Below, piece after piece: positions 11,639-35,172 of a stretch of 64,000 bases of DNA. This DNA is from Acidobacteriota bacterium. Its GTDB lineage: Bacteria > Acidobacteriota > Thermoanaerobaculia > Multivoradales > Multivoraceae. The position numbers and the translations under genes were made by a program. Each line of letters starts with the position of its first letter. The stretch's first letter is position 1. Below the pieces are notes generated by a model, which did no database searches, was not told the DNA's origin, and was given only the letters and a program-made list of their open reading frames with translations. Location: NCBI GenBank assembly GCA_029263415.1, contig JAJCXN010000038.1, positions 1-64,000 of the forward strand, read 5' to 3'.

Positions 11639-12856
11639 TTAGTGGAAGTGTTCGAGGAAGGCCAGCCGTAGCTCCTCGCGATTCGAGACCGCACCCGACC
11701 TACCCGCCACGGACCATGAGTCTAGGGCGCCCGACTCGAAGCCATCGCTGAAAATCGTGTCGAGTAGCCCGCTGCTGGCTTCCCAGGTTCCGAGGAACAG
11801 AACATCCGGATCTGACGGATCGCGCACCAGCGCATACGGCACAGAGATCTCGAGATCCAATCCGCTGTTGCTTGGCACCCAGACGTTGGATTCTCGGCGA
11901 AACACACCGTCGATCGTCGAAACGACCATCGGACGCGTGCTCTGGCTCGGCAGGATGTCGTGGATCGAGATTCCGTCGAGCCCGAGGGAACTCCATGTGC
12001 TGCCAATGAGCTCGTAGATGCCCTGTTCGAAGGTCCCGGCATAGAGACTGACGCCGTCGGAAGCGAGATCCTCGACATCGACGGGAGACGGCAGGCCGTC
12101 GCTTGCCGGGTCCCAGCACGTCCAGGGGATCACGCAGTCTTCCTCGAGCGGGATATCGTCGTGTAGCTTGATCACCCCCCCGCACTGTCCAACCGGGTTC
12201 GTAGCGGTACACGCGTGACCGATATACGGCGCGATGATGGTACTCGCCGCCGACGTCGAGACCGCATCGAAACCACCTATTGCAGACCAGGCGCCGTTCA
12301 GGGGAGATAGCAGACGCTTCGCACCTGATCCGCTGTTGGCGGTAAACAGATTGGCGCCATTGAACGTCAGTGACAGGGTGCTCGTACCGTGGGGGCTACC
12401 GACCACGGTCCAGGTGTTTCCCTCGTTGCTGCTGCGGTACACCTCACCCGCTCCCGCCGTCGTCCCGTTGGTGTCGAGATCGAGGGTCGCGGCGTAGATG
12501 TAGATGCCGTTGTGTTCCAGGTGGTCGACGTACTCGAGGTTCGTCCCGTTGCCGTCCGTGGGACCCCAGTCGTCTCCGCCATCCGTACTGATCCAGATCC
12601 CGTCGAAGTGGTTGCCGGCGTAGATGACATCCTCGTCGTTGGGGTCGACCGCTAGAGAGTGGACATCGATCAGCGAAAGCTCGACCAAGCTCCACGACTC
12701 GCCACCGTTCGTGCTCTTGTAGATGGCGGCCAAGGCGACGTGGCTGAAAAGCAGGTTGACGACAACGGCGAGCAAGAAAGCGAATCGCACGACTCGCTGC
12801 GAACCTCCGAGATGGTTTGTGTCAGGTCGAGTGGGCATGTTAGGGCGATGGGGCAT
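11639..12856 (-). CDS. Secreted BNR/Asp-box repeat protein with DGFESG motif
   Basis: A 405-residue secreted propeller-type protein. GGAGG lies 5 nt before the ATG at 12856. A signal peptide with hydrophobic core FAFLLAVVVNLLFSHVALAA ends near residue 44. Asp-box/BNR units follow: IYKSTNGGESW, IWISTDGGDDW, VYRSSNEGNTW, interspersed with short 'D-P-x-D-x-x-V-[IL]-[YF]-x-G' loops, as in sialidase- and sortilin-like propellers. Near the C-terminus (about residues 371-382) it has DGFESGALDSWS, the same motif as in the CAP-domain protein at 31438. No catalytic sialidase residues were recognised, so a binding or surface role is more likely. It is monocistronic, with repeat copies on both sides. Confidence 0.8.
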   Translation of the reverse strand: MPHRPNMPTRPDTNHLGGSQRVVRFAFLLAVVVNLLFSHVALAAIYKSTNGGESWSLVELSLIDVHSLAVDPNDEDVIYAGNHFDGIWISTDGGDDWGPTDGNGTNLEYVDHLEHNGIYIYAATLDLDTNGTTAGAGEVYRSSNEGNTWTVVGSPHGTSTLSLTFNGANLFTANSGSGAKRLLSPLNGAWSAIGGFDAVSTSAASTIIAPYIGHACTATNPVGQCGGVIKLHDDIPLEEDCVIPWTCWDPASDGLPSPVDVEDLASDGVSLYAGTFEQGIYELIGSTWSSLGLDGISIHDILPSQSTRPMVVSTIDGVFRRESNVWVPSNSGLDLEISVPYALVRDPSDPDVLFLGTWEASSGLLDTIFSDGFESGALDSWSVAGRSGAVSNREELRLAFLEHFH

Positions 12857-13182
12857 GGGACCTCCGGTTCACGAGAGTGGAAACTAAGTTCGAAAGGCAT
12901 CGCGACGTGCCGGAGCCGACCGTCAGACGCCACGCTCCGAGATACACCGCTTAGAGGTAGACGGACACGCAAGACTTTTTCCCGGTATGTCGCAGTATTA
13001 GTCGCCGGGCAATCCTGCAGAAGGAACGAAAAGGGTTGCCAGCAGCAGCAAAAGATGCCGGGGTAATGTTGTTGAGCAGCAAAGGGCCTCAGCAGCAGCA
13101 AAGGGTGCCAGGCACATGTTGCGGGTCCTCGGAAAGAGCTCGCAACGTGTTGCGGGCGCTCCGGTACGAGTAAGATCGCCAT
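12857..13182. repeat. Intergenic region with two clustered copies of the dispersed repeat
   Basis: About 325 nt between divergent genes. A diverged copy (AGCAGCAAAAGATGCCGGGG, then TAATGTTGTTG) is at about 13042-13072 and a good copy at 13094-13124 (GCAAAGGGTGCCAGGCACAT then GTTGCGGG) with a perfect GTGCC-A-GGCAC core; a further ACGTGTTGCGGG echo lies at 13145-13156. The repeated AGCAGCA spacers suggest local duplication. No gene was seen. Confidence 0.7.
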
Positions 13183-28580: not shown

Positions 28581-30908
28581 CTACTCGAACTCAACCTCAA
28601 GGCTAGTCAACGCCCTAGCGGCCGCGTTACTGACAGTTTCAATGTCACCTCCTGAGACGCCAAACTCCCGCAGTGTTTCTCGAATGCGCTTAGCAACTGC
28701 GGATCGCGAGCCATCAAAGCGCAACCGATTGTTCTCAACGTTCATGTTGAGCGAGTCCCTAACGGCATCGGCGACTGCAACCACAGCGTCCTCTCCAACG
28801 TTGAGCGCAGCCAACTCTTCACGAAGAGTGGCCCGAAGAAACTTGAGCGAACTGCGTTCAAAACGATCGGCGAGACGCTGCATTTCTTCATGCACGGGCT
28901 CCATCTCGCGATGCACTTCTCTCATCCTCTCGTGCACCGGCTCCATATCGACGTGCAGTTCGTGCATGCGTGCCATCGCGGGTTCCATCTGTTCATGCAC
29001 CACTCTCATCCGCTCGTAGATCGGCTCCATGCGCTCATGGACGGTCCTCATCTCTTCGAAAGTCGGTTCCATCTCTTCATGGATTTCTCGTAGCCGTTCA
29101 AAGTTGGGTTCCATCTGCTGATGAACATGTTGCATCTGTTTGTGCACAGGCTCCATCTCTTGACGCAGTTTGTGAACTTCGGCAAGCACCGGCTCCATCT
29201 CGGCGTGGATCTGCTCCATCTGCTGGCGAAACGGCTCCGAAGCGCGGCTCAACTCCTCACCCAGACGACGCAGTTCTCCCAGCTGTGCGCCGTCGAGTTG
29301 TTTGCCCTCCAGTTCGAGCTTCTTGAGCTCTTGCTCGAGCTGCTTGGTCTCGGCGAGGAACTTCACCTCGACCTCCTCCATCTTGATCTGAAAGGGCTCA
29401 AGTTGAAGTTCGAATTGCTCTAGCTGCTCCTCGAGTGGCTCCAGTTCAACCATCACTAGTTCAAGTTGCGTCTCAAAGGGTTCAAGCCCTCCTTCGAGTT
29501 CCGCGAGCCTGGCCTCGTGAGGCTCCAACAGGGCCTCGAACGCCTCCAACTCGACTTCGAACGGTTCCATCTCACCCTCGATTGCTTCGAGTTGCTCCTC
29601 GAACGGGCGAATCTCGCCCTCCGCTGATTCGATCACCGTCTCGATCGGCTCCAGCTCCACTTCGAGGGCCTCCAGCCGAGCTTCGTAAGGCTCCAACTTC
29701 TCGCTGGTCTGCTCGAGTTCTCGCGCCACCACCCTAAGCTCATCGAGCGCCTGTTCTCGTGTAGGGGTTTGCTCTTCTTGGGTCCATGGCGCAACGGCCG
29801 CCAAGACCGGCACTAGTCCGGTCACCAGCAGCATTGAGACGGCGGCAAGAACACGATTGTGCACCTGGGTCTTCTGAGCAGAGAGTCTGAGAATCGACAT
29901 GAGGCGGATCTCCAGTTGTGGTCGCCGCGCCATCGGTAGCGCAAGCGTGGGGATGGTTAGCGCTGCGCAGTTGTCTTCGCGCGCCAGAGACAAAAGATGT
30001 TGGGCGTAGCGACTTGCCGGTGTGCCCAGAGCGACCACGGCTTCGTCGCACGCTTGTTCTTGTTCAACAATCAGACGGGAGAACGCAAACCAAGCCAAGG
30101 GATGAAACCAATAGAGAGCACAAGCGCTCCGCGCCCACGAGCGCACGAGCCAGTCGCCACGCTTGATGTGCGCTAGCTCATGCAGAAGAACCACGCGACG
30201 GCGTTCGTCACTCCATTGGACATGCTGTTGGGGCAGCAAAACCACCGGATCGAAGTGTCCCCACGTGATGGGACCACTCAGCTGATTGCCAGTCAGCAGC
30301 CTCACCGACCGCTTCAGCCCAACGACCGCCGTCGCCTCACGCAATAGCCGGCGGGTGACCAGATCCGCCTCTTCAACAGCGTTGCGCCGCATCTGCGCCA
30401 GCTGCCGGTGTGCCTGGAGTTGTCGCCACAAGCTCCACACCACTCCAAGCAGCCACACGAGACCAAGGGCGGCCGGAAGGCTTGGGAGCCAGCCACCGAG
30501 AGGCGAACCACTCCGGCCTGGATTAGATCGTTCGACCGGCGCTGCGGTGCGGACCAGCGGCTTCGATGGAGGCTGCGCCGCCGAGACTAGTCGCTGCGGA
30601 CCCGAGAACGTGGACGCAGCGGCAGCGGACGCAGCCGGTGTGATCTCGGCAGCCTCGACCAACTGGGAGCGGCTTGCCCAACCAGCCAACGGATCCGGGG
30701 CAAGGGGGAACGACCAACTCGGCAGAAGCGCTGCGAGCGGCACCAATGCGACCGCACCGAGCAGCGAGACCATCAGCAGGCGAAGACGAACGCTGGCTCG
30801 TGCGCCGCGGAGTGCGTGCGTAACGACAATCGCCAAGACCAGCAACACTGTTGCTTTGAGGGTGGTGTCTAGCATTACGGCGGCGGCCGGACCGCTCAGG
30901 GTGTACAC
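28581..30908 (-). CDS. M56 (BlaR1-type) membrane metallopeptidase with 16 fourteen-residue repeats
   Basis: A 775-residue membrane peptidase. Hydrophobic segments lie near residues 17-32, 43-62 and 145-162; the zinc site is HELAH (His243-His247) with the downstream glutamate in VEQEQACDEA; another helix (VLAAVSMLLVTGLVPVLAAV) is near 353-372. In BlaR1 a penicillin-sensor domain would follow; here it is replaced by two blocks of eight 14-residue units: [LM]EP-type units rich in Glu/Leu (residues 405-516) and MEP units rich in His/Met (571-682). A small folded C-terminus ends the protein. The GTG start lies 1 nt after the BlaI stop, so the pair is co-translated. By analogy it senses a surface signal and triggers cleavage of the repressor; the ligand is unknown. 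Confidence 0.88.
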   Translation of the reverse strand: MYTLSGPAAAVMLDTTLKATVLLVLAIVVTHALRGARASVRLRLLMVSLLGAVALVPLAALLPSWSFPLAPDPLAGWASRSQLVEAAEITPAASAAAASTFSGPQRLVSAAQPPSKPLVRTAAPVERSNPGRSGSPLGGWLPSLPAALGLVWLLGVVWSLWRQLQAHRQLAQMRRNAVEEADLVTRRLLREATAVVGLKRSVRLLTGNQLSGPITWGHFDPVVLLPQQHVQWSDERRRVVLLHELAHIKRGDWLVRSWARSACALYWFHPLAWFAFSRLIVEQEQACDEAVVALGTPASRYAQHLLSLAREDNCAALTIPTLALPMARRPQLEIRLMSILRLSAQKTQVHNRVLAAVSMLLVTGLVPVLAAVAPWTQEEQTPTREQALDELRVVARELEQTSEKLEPYEARLEALEVELEPIETVIESAEGEIRPFEEQLEAIEGEMEPFEVELEAFEALLEPHEARLAELEGGLEPFETQLELVMVELEPLEEQLEQFELQLEPFQIKMEEVEVKFLAETKQLEQELKKLELEGKQLDGAQLGELRRLGEELSRASEPFRQQMEQIHAEMEPVLAEVHKLRQEMEPVHKQMQHVHQQMEPNFERLREIHEEMEPTFEEMRTVHERMEPIYERMRVVHEQMEPAMARMHELHVDMEPVHERMREVHREMEPVHEEMQRLADRFERSSLKFLRATLREELAALNVGEDAVVAVADAVRDSLNMNVENNRLRFDGSRSAVAKRIRETLREFGVSGGDIETVSNAAARALTSLEVEFE
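28863..29696 (-). repeat. Two coding blocks of 42-bp (14-residue) repeats inside the M56 gene
   Basis: Residues 405-516: eight units such as LEPYEARLEALEVE, MEPFEVELEAFEAL, LEPLEEQLEQFELQ. Residues 571-682: eight units such as MEPNFERLREIHEE, MEPTFEEMRTVHER, MEPIYERMRVVHEQ, MEPVHERMREVHRE. A proline recurs every 14 residues at position 3. At the DNA level CGGCTCCAT or GGTTCCATC recurs about every 42 nt. The spacer (517-570) is helical without the Pro period. Confidence 0.92.
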
Positions 30909-30909
30909 G

Positions 30910-31296
30910 TCAACGACCCTCCGCTCGCGCCCGATCGATCATCTCTTGAAGACGGGTCAGTTCTTCCTCTGCCAACGGCTCTTTGCCCAGATCAAGCATT
31001 GCGGCAAATGCCTGCTCATTGGAACTGTCGAAGAAGGTGGTGAGCAGATGGCGCATTGCATTGCGCCGTGCGGCCTCGCGCGGCACGATTGGATGAAACA
31101 CGTAGCGAGGACCATCTTGCTCATGTCGAAGATGACCCTTTTCTTCAAGAATGCGGAGCAAGGTACGCACCGCGGAGTTCGACGGAGGGTCCGGCAACCG
31201 AGCCAGGACCTCGCTTGCGGTCGCAGCCCCGCTCCGGTAGAGAATGTCCATGATCTGGCGTTCGCGGCGACTCAGTTCTGGTTTGACTCGACTCAT
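30910..31296 (-). CDS. BlaI/MecI/CopY-family repressor
   Basis: A 128-residue winged-helix repressor. LSRRERQIMDILYRSGAATA begins the DNA-binding domain, followed by ASEVLARLPDPPSNSAVRTL and LRILEEKGHLRHEQDGPRYV; the C-terminal helices (FDSSNEQAFAAMLDLGKEPL) form the dimer interface where partner M56 peptidases cut. The ATG at 31296 is chosen because GAGG lies about 9 nt upstream; a TTG 15 nt earlier is less likely. It starts 47 nt from a perfect 12-bp inverted repeat that is its likely operator, and it abuts the M56 gene. It should repress its own operon and possibly remote genes. Confidence 0.93.
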   Translation of the reverse strand: MSRVKPELSRRERQIMDILYRSGAATASEVLARLPDPPSNSAVRTLLRILEEKGHLRHEQDGPRYVFHPIVPREAARRNAMRHLLTTFFDSSNEQAFAAMLDLGKEPLAEEELTRLQEMIDRARAEGR

Positions 31297-31342
31297 GATC
31301 AGCGCCCTCAAGCTCTCCGGTAGGCGTTCATCGCCTCCGGAA

Positions 31343-31375
31343 GCTAAATTTTTAACATACTGCTAAAAATTTAGC
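31343..31375. promoter_or_regulatory. Perfect 12-bp inverted repeat, candidate BlaI operator
   Basis: GCTAAATTTTTA (31343-31354), spacer ACATACTGC, then TAAAAATTTAGC (31364-31375). The arms are exact reverse complements in an otherwise GC-rich region, 47 nt upstream of the BlaI start. The centre contains ACATACTG, reminiscent of the TACA/TGTA core of known BlaI/MecI operators though not identical. The A/T content also suits promoter overlap. Confidence 0.75.
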
Positions 31376-31437
31376 AAGAGCGTCCGCGCAGAATCGCAGC
31401 CCTGCCCAATCGTCGGCCGTCGCCGGAATCCCTCGTC

Positions 31438-32544
31438 TTAGGGAGTGGAACTCGTCCAGGCTGCGACCGTGCCGCTTTCGAAGCCATCGGCAAAGAGATC
31501 GTCCACCGCCACGGCAGGGTCGATCACAGTGACATCGTAGGTGAACTGAGACACCGCACTGTTCTGGATGTTGTCGACCGTCACTGTGAACGTGGCATCC
31601 TCCATTCCGCCGCCGAAGACAAGCCCTGAGGGCTCCCAGACAATCGTGTTGTCACCGAAACCGTTTTCGATAGCCAAGACCGTTAGGGTGACCGGAGAGC
31701 CGTTCTGACTCATTGAAACTGTGGCGCTTGAGTAGTTGGCATTGGGTACCGTGTTGAGCGAGAACGACCATCGTGGGTAGACAACTTGGTAAGGAACAAA
31801 CCCGGCTGGTGGCCAGGGCACCGCAACGGGAGTCGCGAGAGGCGACCCCGTAGGACCAAAGACATCGAGCGCGTTGGCGTGATGGAACACGTTAACGCCA
31901 TCGTTGGAACCGCTTCCCATCGCCGTCCGCCGTGGATACAAGATCCAACGTCGATGCCCCACAGGCTCGTTGAAGGTCCCGGAGTCGCGAATGTAGGCCA
32001 CCATAGCCGCAGGCCCGGCGTTGCCCAACGCAAGATTGGATGAAGCCGCAGAGGCTGCCCCGGCCGACGTATAGCAAGCCCAACTCATCGGTGGAGCATG
32101 GCTCAAGGCTCCTTCCGCGATCATCATCAGCGCCGCGTCTTGCGCACCGGCGTTGTCCGGCACTTGATTGATCACGCTTGGCAAGCCGACCATTGCACGA
32201 AAGTAATTGATCATGTCGATGGTGGCGTCCAGATATGCGGCAGAGGTGACACCCGCAACGCAACCAGCGATGCTGCCGGTCCAACCCATCGGCACACTCA
32301 GATTCGGTGTGTAGTGCAAATCAAAGAACGATCTGACGGCACTGCGATTCTGGCCATCAACGCTGAGACCTCCTCGGGTCGCCTCAAGCTCGAGCCGCGT
32401 TTCCTGATAGTCCACAGGAAGTGTCGGTGCCGGCGCTAGCCAAACCTCACCCGACAGCTGGGCAGACGCCGCCGAGGCGCAAACGAAACCGACCTTCAAG
32501 AAGACACAAACAACCGACAACCGTCGTGACCGATGCACACACAT
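31438..32544 (-). CDS. Secreted CAP-domain (SCP-like) protein with DGFESG motif
   Basis: A 368-residue exported protein. GGAGG about 12 nt upstream supports the start at 32544, giving the signal sequence SVVCVFLKVGFVCASAASAQ. The central domain is a bacterial CAP/SCP fold: MINYFRAMVGLPSVINQVPD, AALMMIAEGALSHAPP, and VGHRRWILYPRRTAMGSG, corresponding to the usual N-x-x-R, H-x-[ML] and G-H-R-x-x-[IL]-L motifs. An immunoglobulin-like beta domain follows (SVSQFTYDVTVIDPAV). The last 20 residues hold LFADGFESGTVAAW, the same tag as in the BNR protein at 11639. Role unknown; CAP proteins are often secreted effectors or adhesins. Confidence 0.83.
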   Translation of the reverse strand: MCVHRSRRLSVVCVFLKVGFVCASAASAQLSGEVWLAPAPTLPVDYQETRLELEATRGGLSVDGQNRSAVRSFFDLHYTPNLSVPMGWTGSIAGCVAGVTSAAYLDATIDMINYFRAMVGLPSVINQVPDNAGAQDAALMMIAEGALSHAPPMSWACYTSAGAASAASSNLALGNAGPAAMVAYIRDSGTFNEPVGHRRWILYPRRTAMGSGSNDGVNVFHHANALDVFGPTGSPLATPVAVPWPPAGFVPYQVVYPRWSFSLNTVPNANYSSATVSMSQNGSPVTLTVLAIENGFGDNTIVWEPSGLVFGGGMEDATFTVTVDNIQNSAVSQFTYDVTVIDPAVAVDDLFADGFESGTVAAWTSSTP

Positions 32545-32679
32545 TAGGGAGGACCTCCGGACATTGGACCTGAGAGTACCTCTCGCGTGAACCATGCGCC
32601 ATCGTTCAACCGCCCACGACCCACGCAAACTCGCAAGGCGATTGGAAACACAGGCCCACTCACTTCGTACAATGGAGTC

Positions 32680-35172
32680 ATGAACTGGAACCATGATCTC
32701 CGTTTCGCTTGGCGCACCCTCCGCAAGAGCCCTGGCTTCTTGGTGGTAGCGACCCTCTCGCTAGGGCTGGGAATCGCACTCAACACCACCATTTTCAGCC
32801 TGGTGCATTCTGCTCTCTTTCGCACACCCGAAGTGACTCGCCCCAGCGAACTGGTCAACATCTACTCGCTCAAGACCAGCGCCACGGACCTCAAACCTCA
32901 CTCAGTACCTGACTATCGCGACCTGGCCGCGTCAACAACATCGTTCACCGATCTGATCGGCCACTCCCTAGCGATCATGAACGTGCAAACAGATGCGCGG
33001 CCGACGCCGCTGCTCGGTGGCATCGTCAGCCAGAACTACTTCGATGTTCTCGGTGTGCCGGCCCGAACCGGTAGAACCTTCCTCCGCGAAGAAGCCATCG
33101 GTGGCGGTGCTGCGCCAACCGTGGTCCTGACCGACAGCTACTGGCGACGCGCCTTTGCAGAAGACCCGGGAGTAGTCTCAAGGTCCATGCGCATTGGCGG
33201 CGTCGACTTCGAGATCGTCGGCGTGCTGCCACCTAAGTTCCGTGGTCTTGCTCGAGGCTTGCAGCCCGACGTATTCGTCCCGCTGGCCCAAGTCGACCAT
33301 GTTGAACCCATGGGGGAGATCGATACCCAAGGTCGCTCGACAGGAAACAGCACGCTGGAACGCCGCGGGATGCGCTTCATGACGGTCGTCGGCCGCCTCG
33401 CTCCAAACACAACAATCGAAGCCGCATCGGCCGAGATCAACACGTTGGCGAAAGCGCTCGCCGCTGACAACCCCGACACCAATCTCGACCGGGAAGCTCG
33501 CCTCATTCCGACTTCGCGAGTCCGGTTCGACCCAGACCTCGACGCCACCCTCGTACCCGCCGCGATGGTGGTCCTAGGCTTGGTAGCTATGGTGCTGCTA
33601 ATCGCCTGCGCCAACATCGGCAACATGCTCCTGGCCAAGGCCGAAGGGCGACGGCGTGAAATCGCAGTCCGCTTGTCCTTGGGGGCCGGACGATGGCAAC
33701 TGGTCCGTCTTCTATTGATCGAGAGCCTGCTGCTATCGATCCTAGGCGGTTTAGCAGGACTCGCGCTTGCCGCCGGTGCAACTCGACTGCTCTCCCAACT
33801 ACGATTCGATCTTCCGGTAGACGTTGCCCTCGATCCGCGCCTCGACTCTCCGGTTCTACTCTTCACATTGGGTATCTCGCTAGCTACCGGTCTGTTCTTC
33901 GGCCTCTTCCCCGCACTGCAAGCATCAACGGTGAACCTAGTGCCCGCGCTGAAGGCAGCACCTCGAGCGGTCGGCGCGCGCGGGATCAGGAGCTGGCTAC
34001 AGCCGGCGCGTGCTCTGGTCGTGCTGCAAGTGGCGTTGTCACTCATCCTCTTAGTGGGTGCCGGCCTGCTTCAGCGGAGCGTCAAGGAAGCACGCTCTGT
34101 CGACCTAGGCTTCGACGCAGATCGACTCGGCACCCTCACTCTGGACCTGGCCTCGATGGAACTCGCTCCCGAAGCGGTCGAGCCGAAATGGGCGGAACTG
34201 GTCCGGGACCTTGAGTCCCTGCCCGGAGTCGAACAAGCGGGATTCGGCACCCGGATGCCGCTAGATCTCAACATGCACAGCAGCAACTTCCTGATCGCGG
34301 GCCATCGTGAACTGGACAGTGATCCGCCGCTGAGCCTCGACGTCACCGTGGTTCCAAACAGCTACTTCGAAACGCTCGGTATCCCTTTGAAGGAAGGCTC
34401 TTGGTTCCCGCCTGCCGCAAGTGACGATCAAGAACAACCACGCACCGCGATCGTCAACGAAGCCATGGCCCAGCGCTTCTGGCCCAATCGGAGCGCGGTC
34501 GGACAGACTTTCAAGCGCGGCACGGTCGACTCGGCTGAGACCACCATTATCGGAGTTATCGCGGACTACAAAGTGCGCACTCCAGGCGAACAGCCGCGGC
34601 CTATGGCGCATTTTTCCCGCGTCCAAGGCGGCCTCACCTATGGCAACCTCATTTATCGGGCGGTAGGCGACGCAGCAGCAGCCGAGGCGTCGGTCACAGA
34701 CCTGCTGCTCAAATCGCATCCTGATCTCTTCATCATGGAATCGACCTCGATCAGTCGCCGTCGTGACCTTGTCCTGCTACCCATCCGCCTCGGCGGCGCC
34801 TTGGTCAGCGGCCTGAGCGCCCTCGCTCTCTTGCTCGCAACCATCGGCCTGGCCGGCCTGATCGCTTACTGGGTATCTCAGCGAACCAAGGAGATCGGCA
34901 TCCGAGTTGCCCTCGGCGCCGACCAACCGCGCATCGTCCGACTGATCATGGCCAGAAGCCTCTCCTTGGTAGCCGTCGGTGCAGTGCTTGGCACCTTGGG
35001 AGCGTTGGTGTTGGGCCAAGTGCTTCAGACAGCTCTCTATGTGCCAGCTGCCGACCCAGTCTCGATGCTGTTCGGCATCGTAGTCCTGGTCGCAGCTGCG
35101 GCGGTTGCGACCCTTTTTCCGGTTCAACGTGCCACCAGAGTCGACACGCTAAAGGCGCTACGAGCAGAGTAA
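32680..35172 (+). CDS. ADOP-type (MacB-like) permease without PadR partner
   Basis: An 830-residue orphan permease. GGAG lies 5 nt before the ATG at 32680; the frame is open further upstream but unconserved. It begins directly with LRFAWRTLRKSPGFLVVATL, lacking the ~95-residue extension of the PadR-linked homologue at 23009. Order: TM1, MacB periplasmic core (DYRDLAASTTSFTDLIGHSL, then VSQNYFDVLGVPARTGRTF), FtsX helices (VLGLVAMVLLIACANIGNML, REIAVRLSLGAGRW), second TM and core, second FtsX unit (TKEIGIRVALGADQPRIVRL) and terminal DTLKALRAE. No ATPase gene is near. It probably works in efflux or lipoprotein/peptide transport, but the substrate is unknown. Confidence 0.92.
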   Translation: MNWNHDLRFAWRTLRKSPGFLVVATLSLGLGIALNTTIFSLVHSALFRTPEVTRPSELVNIYSLKTSATDLKPHSVPDYRDLAASTTSFTDLIGHSLAIMNVQTDARPTPLLGGIVSQNYFDVLGVPARTGRTFLREEAIGGGAAPTVVLTDSYWRRAFAEDPGVVSRSMRIGGVDFEIVGVLPPKFRGLARGLQPDVFVPLAQVDHVEPMGEIDTQGRSTGNSTLERRGMRFMTVVGRLAPNTTIEAASAEINTLAKALAADNPDTNLDREARLIPTSRVRFDPDLDATLVPAAMVVLGLVAMVLLIACANIGNMLLAKAEGRRREIAVRLSLGAGRWQLVRLLLIESLLLSILGGLAGLALAAGATRLLSQLRFDLPVDVALDPRLDSPVLLFTLGISLATGLFFGLFPALQASTVNLVPALKAAPRAVGARGIRSWLQPARALVVLQVALSLILLVGAGLLQRSVKEARSVDLGFDADRLGTLTLDLASMELAPEAVEPKWAELVRDLESLPGVEQAGFGTRMPLDLNMHSSNFLIAGHRELDSDPPLSLDVTVVPNSYFETLGIPLKEGSWFPPAASDDQEQPRTAIVNEAMAQRFWPNRSAVGQTFKRGTVDSAETTIIGVIADYKVRTPGEQPRPMAHFSRVQGGLTYGNLIYRAVGDAAAAEASVTDLLLKSHPDLFIMESTSISRRRDLVLLPIRLGGALVSGLSALALLLATIGLAGLIAYWVSQRTKEIGIRVALGADQPRIVRLIMARSLSLVAVGAVLGTLGALVLGQVLQTALYVPAADPVSMLFGIVVLVAAAAVATLFPVQRATRVDTLKALRAE

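Follow-up and report, generated by a model that had tools for sequence, protein, structure and literature searches.

What does a BlaR1-type receptor respond to when its penicillin sensor is missing? The question is raised by a blaI-M56 gene pair on the minus strand of a 64,000-nucleotide stretch of Acidobacteriota DNA (assembly GCA_029263415.1, contig JAJCXN010000038.1, positions 1 to 64,000; hereafter the window). The 775-residue M56 receptor protease of this pair carries, after its last membrane segment, a long tail punctuated by prolines. The best reading is that the tail is a coiled-coil input module new to the M56/BlaI type; beyond the M56/BlaI core, we infer the mechanism. The pair would be a BlaR1-type proteolytic system whose extracytoplasmic input is a long coiled-coil module capped by a small C-terminal domain, and not a beta-lactam sensor. 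Confidence in this reading is moderate, about even, with the hairpin and the signalling route conjectural.

BlaR1-type receptors are described as beta-lactam sensors, together with a sensor-less homologue in Mycobacterium tuberculosis (PMC9834060). The locus and its relatives appear to use the same proteolytic switch as BlaR1, fitted with a different and highly regular module.

The repeat tail

The tail is divided into the following parts (aa, amino acid residue).

29307..29759, minus strand: arm 1, predicted helix aa 384-534 with eight proline units (Pro 407-505); from proline spacing, AlphaFold2 and heptad register
29292..29306, minus strand: break between the arms, aa 535-539; AlphaFold2 loop with a dip in predicted local distance difference test (pLDDT) score
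28860..29291, minus strand: arm 2, the repeat section (aa 540-683) of predicted helix 540-698, with nine proline units between Pro 559 and Pro 671, of which eight are M-E-P; most His occupy heptad position e; from proline spacing, AlphaFold2 and heptad register
28584..28841, minus strand: C-terminal domain, aa 690-775, with the end of the long helix, a helix, two strands, two helices and a short strand; from AlphaFold2 and profile, no Pfam family

The prolines of block 1 (n = 8) stand at residues 407, 421, 435, 449, 463, 477, 491 and 505, and those of block 2 (n = 9) at 559, 573, 587, 601, 615, 629, 643, 657 and 671, every step being exactly 14 residues. Their phase coherence at period 14 is 0.84, with a maximum of 0.67 in 5000 shuffles. 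An earlier note on this DNA, made from the letters alone, had counted sixteen 14-residue repeats in two blocks of eight. The two different blocks and the spacing stand; the count is corrected to 8 + 9 = 17 units, the extra one being an S-E-P unit at 559 that precedes eight M-E-P units. Fourteen residues make two heptads, with Leu, Met or Ile at a, mostly Glu at b, Pro at c in every second heptad and a mostly hydrophobic d; position e is usually occupied by Glu in block 1 and by His in block 2. With the register assigned by hydropathy and His treated as neutral, the window protein has no register break over arm 1 (153 residues) or arm 2 (147 residues; shuffle z 11.9 and 13.2, respectively). The AlphaFold2 model, run on a five-sequence alignment without the shorter relatives, shows continuous helices at 384-534 and 540-698 that run through the prolines and a break at 535-539; the predicted helices are thus not stopped by prolines. 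The view of the same note that a proline every 14 residues is incompatible with an unbroken coil is supported by neither the register nor the model. As a natural example of long heptad helices with a predicted tolerance of proline at this spacing, the module is unusually strict.

Arm statistics were taken from 10 of the 13 tail carriers; left out were L031, which a contig end truncates, and L028 and L009, whose arms are irregular and have insertions; for these three the prolines were only listed. In the ten proteins, 82 of the 90 non-core His residues of arm 2 stand at e (18.4 on average and at most 33 in 2000 shuffles), and non-core Pro stands at c in 51/51 cases in arm 2 and 48/55 in arm 1. 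The register breaks 3-8 times in six other coiled-coil M56 tails, none of which places more than four His at e (L033, 4/7).

The DNA of the eight units per block has a mean identity of 55%. At positions where two units have the same amino acid (Met and Trp excluded), the codon is also the same in 60 of 174 comparisons in block 1 (0.34; 0.42 expected from codon usage) and in 57 of 130 in block 2 (0.44; 0.43 expected). Since codon identity between units does not exceed what codon usage predicts, the repeats are taken to be old and maintained at the protein level. A recent expansion or slippage is rejected on this level of codon identity together with the presence of the array in relatives.

Distribution among relatives

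As judged from related genomes, the tail is a conserved module and not a private expansion. The earlier note would have abandoned its reading for a known sensor domain in the region or for an absence of the repeats from relatives. Pfam and NCBIfam gave no family above cut-off, and the tail profile found the tail in 14 of the 148 genomes of the class (Acidobacteriota) at E 1e-12. At E 1e-15 it was found in 5 of the 72 genomes of the order, all five being sources of the profile. Eight of the 14 tail genomes come from one family of another order, and none of the eight was used in building the profile, and the tail spans four families in two orders. The C-terminal domain is in frame in 12 of the 14; genome G040 has a related tail without it. 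When 396 genomes were drawn evenly from the phylum (8 candidates scored per genome), a profile of block 2 plus the C-terminal domain matched six, two via both parts (the own genome and G100, which are profile sources) and four via the coiled coil alone. A single peptide pattern, of a kind that would miss the shorter relatives, was found in a collection of 84,980 species at four loci, all metagenome-assembled, two titled Acidobacteria and two Thermoanaerobaculia. The group of bacteria that carries the tail is represented in these data mainly by environmental DNA.

A blaI gene lies directly upstream in 10/10 tail loci with enough contig (the window, G002, G044, G095, G096, G100, G101, G102, G103 and G109). 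In ten loci compared for their neighbours only blaI recurs throughout, and the neighbouring genes gave no clue to the stimulus; the loci of G100, G101 and G102, which belong to one genus, have further neighbours in common. A literature search that covered titles and the opening of abstracts, and few subscription papers, gave no paper on M56 proteins with such tails.

The gene pair and its operator

The remaining features of the locus are as follows.

30910..31311, minus strand: blaI, Penicillinase_R family repressor, 133 aa (PF03965, E 9.7e-27)
28581..30908, minus strand: M56 receptor protease, 775 aa (PF05569), with a GTG start one base past the blaI stop
29898..30473, minus strand: M56 peptidase domain, aa 146-337 (Pfam PF05569, E 1.7e-32)
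30168..30182, minus strand: HELAH zinc motif, aa 243-247, read from the sequence
29796..29852, minus strand: fourth hydrophobic segment, aa 353-371, from hydropathy
31361..31376, minus strand: operator half 1, a perfect TGCTA-N6-TAGCA palindrome with 0 mismatches to TGCTAAAWWTTTAGCA
31342..31357, minus strand: operator half 2, with 2 mismatches to TGCTAAAWWTTTAGCA, 3 bp from half 1

The two genes form an operon on the minus strand from 31311 to 28581, blaI first and the M56 protease second. With 113 bits against PF05569 (curated cut-off 31) and HELAH as its HExxH motif, the receptor belongs to peptidase family M56; the repressor scores 94 bits against PF03965 (cut-off 22.6) and belongs to the BlaI/MecI family, and its residues 11-76 match the solved penicillinase repressor 1p6r (E 3.6e-4). 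Against the NCBIfam model blaR1_generic the receptor scores 91 bits, below the equivalog cut-off of 400. Hydropathy gives four hydrophobic segments (aa 11-29, 44-62, 143-161 and 353-371), with HELAH between the third and the fourth. The first loop is basic, with 4 Lys and Arg in 14 residues, and the per-loop counts of Lys and Arg fit an N-out/C-out topology (AlphaFold2 confidence is low there), which is also the topology given for BlaR1 (PMC9834060). The protein resembles the BlaR1/BlaI and MecR1/MecI systems of Staphylococcus and Bacillus in its M56 protease with HExxH between transmembrane (TM) segments 3 and 4, in its C-terminal part, predicted to be extracytoplasmic, and in its BlaI partner. 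It differs from BlaR1 and MecR1 in lacking the class-D-like penicillin sensor and in carrying a coiled-coil tail and a small domain after TM4. No penicillin-binding protein or beta-lactamase family is among the 22 Pfam rows for the 775-aa protein. The earlier proposal of a BlaI and M56 pair with a full zinc site and no penicillin-binding sensor is borne out on each point, and since that sensor domain is missing, a beta-lactam is an unlikely stimulus, as had also been proposed. The M. tuberculosis BlaR1 homologue is likewise an M56 protease without a beta-lactam sensor domain; the available part of the report mentions no repeat tail, which sets it apart by description and not by sequence (PMC9834060).

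For the tail (aa 381-775), nothing exceeds the curated cut-offs in Pfam or NCBIfam (in NCBIfam, among the best 25 of 31 rows). The rows below cut-off are mostly coiled-coil, and weak profile matches are to apolipoprotein A-I/A-IV and to SMC/Rad50 coiled coils, with which the tail shares long amphipathic helices; the likeness is one of composition only. Apolipoprotein helices are also proline-punctuated, in repeats of 11 and 22 residues, whereas the repeat of the window tail is 14 residues long in strict heptads. A sequence search of residues 1-380 against solved structures gave no match at E 0.01. At about aa 365-375 (29784-29816), and in relatives, a P-[AVL]-[LI]-A-A-[VI]-like stretch ends TM4 and resembles, by eye, a signal peptidase I site. 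Signal peptidase cuts BlaR1 just after the last TM helix (PMC9834060), and by this comparison the M56 tail might conceivably be shed in the same way.

The palindrome noted earlier at 31343-31375 is real and forms part of a predicted double operator, two TGCTA-N6-TAGCA palindromes before blaI, 19 bp centre to centre. Such a pair, with changes, was seen by eye before blaI in 8 of the 9 tail loci compared (window included; not L028). A search of the genome for further copies of the operator, which had also been suggested, was made in the 6.9-Mb assembly (99.2% complete). The 16-base site occurs there at four places when up to 2 mismatches are allowed, all of them before two blaI genes, that of the window and one paralogue (reversed control, one per strand). 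At 3 mismatches there are five further places, one preceding a third, paralogous blaI, and 16 for the reversed control; distant operator targets were rejected at this level, the sites being rarer than in the control. Among 14 relatives, with up to 1 mismatch, 16/16 distinct places adjoin a blaI, in 10 genomes, and the controls gave zero; the four relatives without such a place are G003, G056 and G111, whose contigs end before blaI, and G002, which has blaI. Judged at these mismatch limits, the main target of the pair seems to be the pair itself; weaker targets are possible. At G000:C41 (L039, L081, L083) a paralogous blaI-M56 pair with a different coiled-coil tail has a nearly identical double operator, so the two BlaI repressors of the own genome may share operators and cross-regulate.

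Predicted shape and proposed mechanism

Of the 30 ten-residue blocks into which the arms were divided (381-530 and 541-690), 22 have a mean pLDDT of at least 90 in the AlphaFold2 model, and the minima, 57 and 65, lie at 531-550. The lengths of arms 1 and 2 are 153/147, 144/159, 108/110 and, in seven proteins, 94-96/102. As a helix rises 0.15 nm per residue, an arm would measure about 22 nm in the window protein and 14-16 nm in the shorter relatives, eight of which have a turn H-[IV]-x-D-G-[TPN]-[LI] between the arms. The matched lengths across orthologues suggest, without proving it, that the modelled arms fold back as an antiparallel hairpin. Foldseek of the whole-protein model gave Staphylococcus aureus BlaR1 chains, solved by cryo-electron microscopy, as best matches (8exq, E 1.1e-6), so that the model is closest to BlaR1; the root-mean-square deviation (rmsd) is near 15 for the whole chain and 2.8 for the peptidase part (8exr_A, 170 columns).

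The C-terminal domain comprises about 85 residues after arm 2. Past the long helix, AlphaFold2 gives helix 706-717, strands 721-725 and 728-732, helices 735-748 and 754-768 and strand 771-773, and the last 141 residues modelled separately reach a mean pLDDT of 89.8. Its fold received no assignment: the best Foldseek match has E 0.52, and the best VIA-align match (1u84, Z 7.2, 80 residues, rmsd 3.1) lies within the range of unrelated models. Run against all frames of the tail and M56 loci compared, the domain profile matched its 12 sources, one piece in G103 (L060) and no other protein. At that place (L060/L079, G103:C427) the domain sits in another reading frame, from a frameshift or a sequencing or assembly error. 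In the paralogue L039 the domain could be aligned by eye; a 12-sequence profile built without L039 missed it at E 1, and the candidate was rejected.

In BlaR1, a ligand bound outside the cell alters the protease on the cytoplasmic side, with direct cleavage of BlaI (PMC9834060). In the proposed mechanism the tail would lie outside the inner membrane, with a topology as in BlaR1, and arms 1 and 2 would form the antiparallel hairpin, the fold-back of which would bring the C-terminal domain to the membrane beside TM4. A change in the envelope would alter the hairpin by protonation of the His row, by metal on the His row, or by a partner or the spacing at the hairpin tip. This change would be relayed via TM4 to the cytoplasmic protease, which would cut BlaI, derepress the blaI-M56 operon and so amplify the receptor. 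The signal probably arises in the cell envelope and is probably not an antibiotic. A more specific form, in which a proline-punctuated hairpin spans much of the periplasm with about ten His facing the Glu-rich arm, and in which protonation- or metal-dependent zipping turns periplasmic pH or envelope spacing into BlaI proteolysis, the receptor controlling chiefly its own amount, is unlikely as a whole.

Several observations weigh against the hairpin and this route. The predicted template modelling score of the model is 0.37, and TM segments 1, 2 and 4 have mean pLDDT below 60. The arm-length correlation of 0.97 owes most of its strength to two length classes and to hand-set boundaries (by eye in L029). 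Matching of the proline layers was tried as proof of a hairpin: close to the turn of the window protein the layers do align, but in L029 and most shorter relatives they do not, and the argument failed. A His-Glu ladder was dropped as a statistical finding, as acidic non-core residues of arm 1 are only slightly enriched at e (73/308; shuffle mean 60, maximum 79), which is not significant. The tail carrier G002 has blaI but no such operator, and the operator scans of the own genome and the 14 relatives gave no target gene outside blaI-M56 operons. Finally, identical heptads would serve a parallel coiled coil between two receptors equally well. The two tails of a receptor dimer would then pair in parallel as a two-stranded rod, bent at an elbow (535-539), and the real sensor, at the outer membrane or peptidoglycan, would be the C-terminal domain, which is in frame in 12/14 tail genomes; BlaR1 itself is dimeric (PMC9834060). 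Such a stalk leaves the matched arm lengths in proteins of different length unexplained, as well as the difference in composition between the Glu-rich arm and the His/Met arm, and is given a real if minor chance.

The antiparallel hairpin leaves room for a metal as its trigger, and arm 2 could also be a metal sensor outright, its spaced His (and Met) binding Zn, Cu or Ni and locking the rod. In the window protein 10 of the 13 arm 2 His occupy one heptad position, with relatives similar, and the top NCBIfam model for the repressor is CopY/TcrY (TIGR02698). The score of 48 bits is below the equivalog cut-off of 122, the tails of 12 of the 13 proteins have no Cys (L058 was counted over its whole open reading frame fragment, and its three Cys precede the tail), close operator copies lie only before blaI genes, and pH also accounts for the His rows. 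Metal sensing of this kind is judged quite improbable. Coiled coils commonly serve as spacers, and unit numbers of the array vary among relatives, but that the tail just distances the C-terminal domain from the membrane, its regularity a by-product of internal duplication, is very improbable, given that the His at e and the Pro at c have been maintained while codon identity does not exceed the expectation from codon usage, and that the pattern is absent from other coiled-coil M56 tails of the class.

Other M56 receptors

Ten other M56 proteins were compared with Pfam: two have ankyrin tails (L007, L019), two HEAT (L015, L045), one TPR (L044) and one a beta-lactamase-like tail (PF00144; L003), and four have no family. 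The six with ankyrin, HEAT, TPR or PF00144 tails have a BlaI homologue nearby. These proteins, of the same order and genome, share the peptidase domain with the window receptor and have the tail swapped after TM4; theirs are known families, whereas the window tail matches none. Going by such comparisons, the M56 receptors of these bacteria are a family of exchangeable inputs after TM4, and with ankyrin, HEAT and TPR tails on other members, the M56/BlaI pair seems to serve this class as a general platform for envelope signals. L020, L043, L046 and L018 are M56 receptors that were also placed, by eye, in this range of inputs.

A tree was built from 37 peptidase domains, with 12 of the 13 tail carriers as input (not L031) and L058, a fragment without the zinc motif, dropped. 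Tail types cluster in it, with 13 changes and a shuffled mean of 23.3; the sister proteins L033 and L046 bear different tails. The free tree explains the origin of the window-type tail with 2 changes; a single clade is not rejected (approximately unbiased test, p-AU 0.27; 11 tail rows of 37, with a long-branch warning).

A motif F-x-D-G-F-E-S-G-x(3-4)-W-[ST] is found at or near the protein end in the window at 31438-32694 (minus strand, part of L001) and in L020, L030, L033, L037 and L046, and is possibly a shared C-terminal sorting tag. At 11639-12868 (minus strand) of the window, about 20 residues follow the motif.

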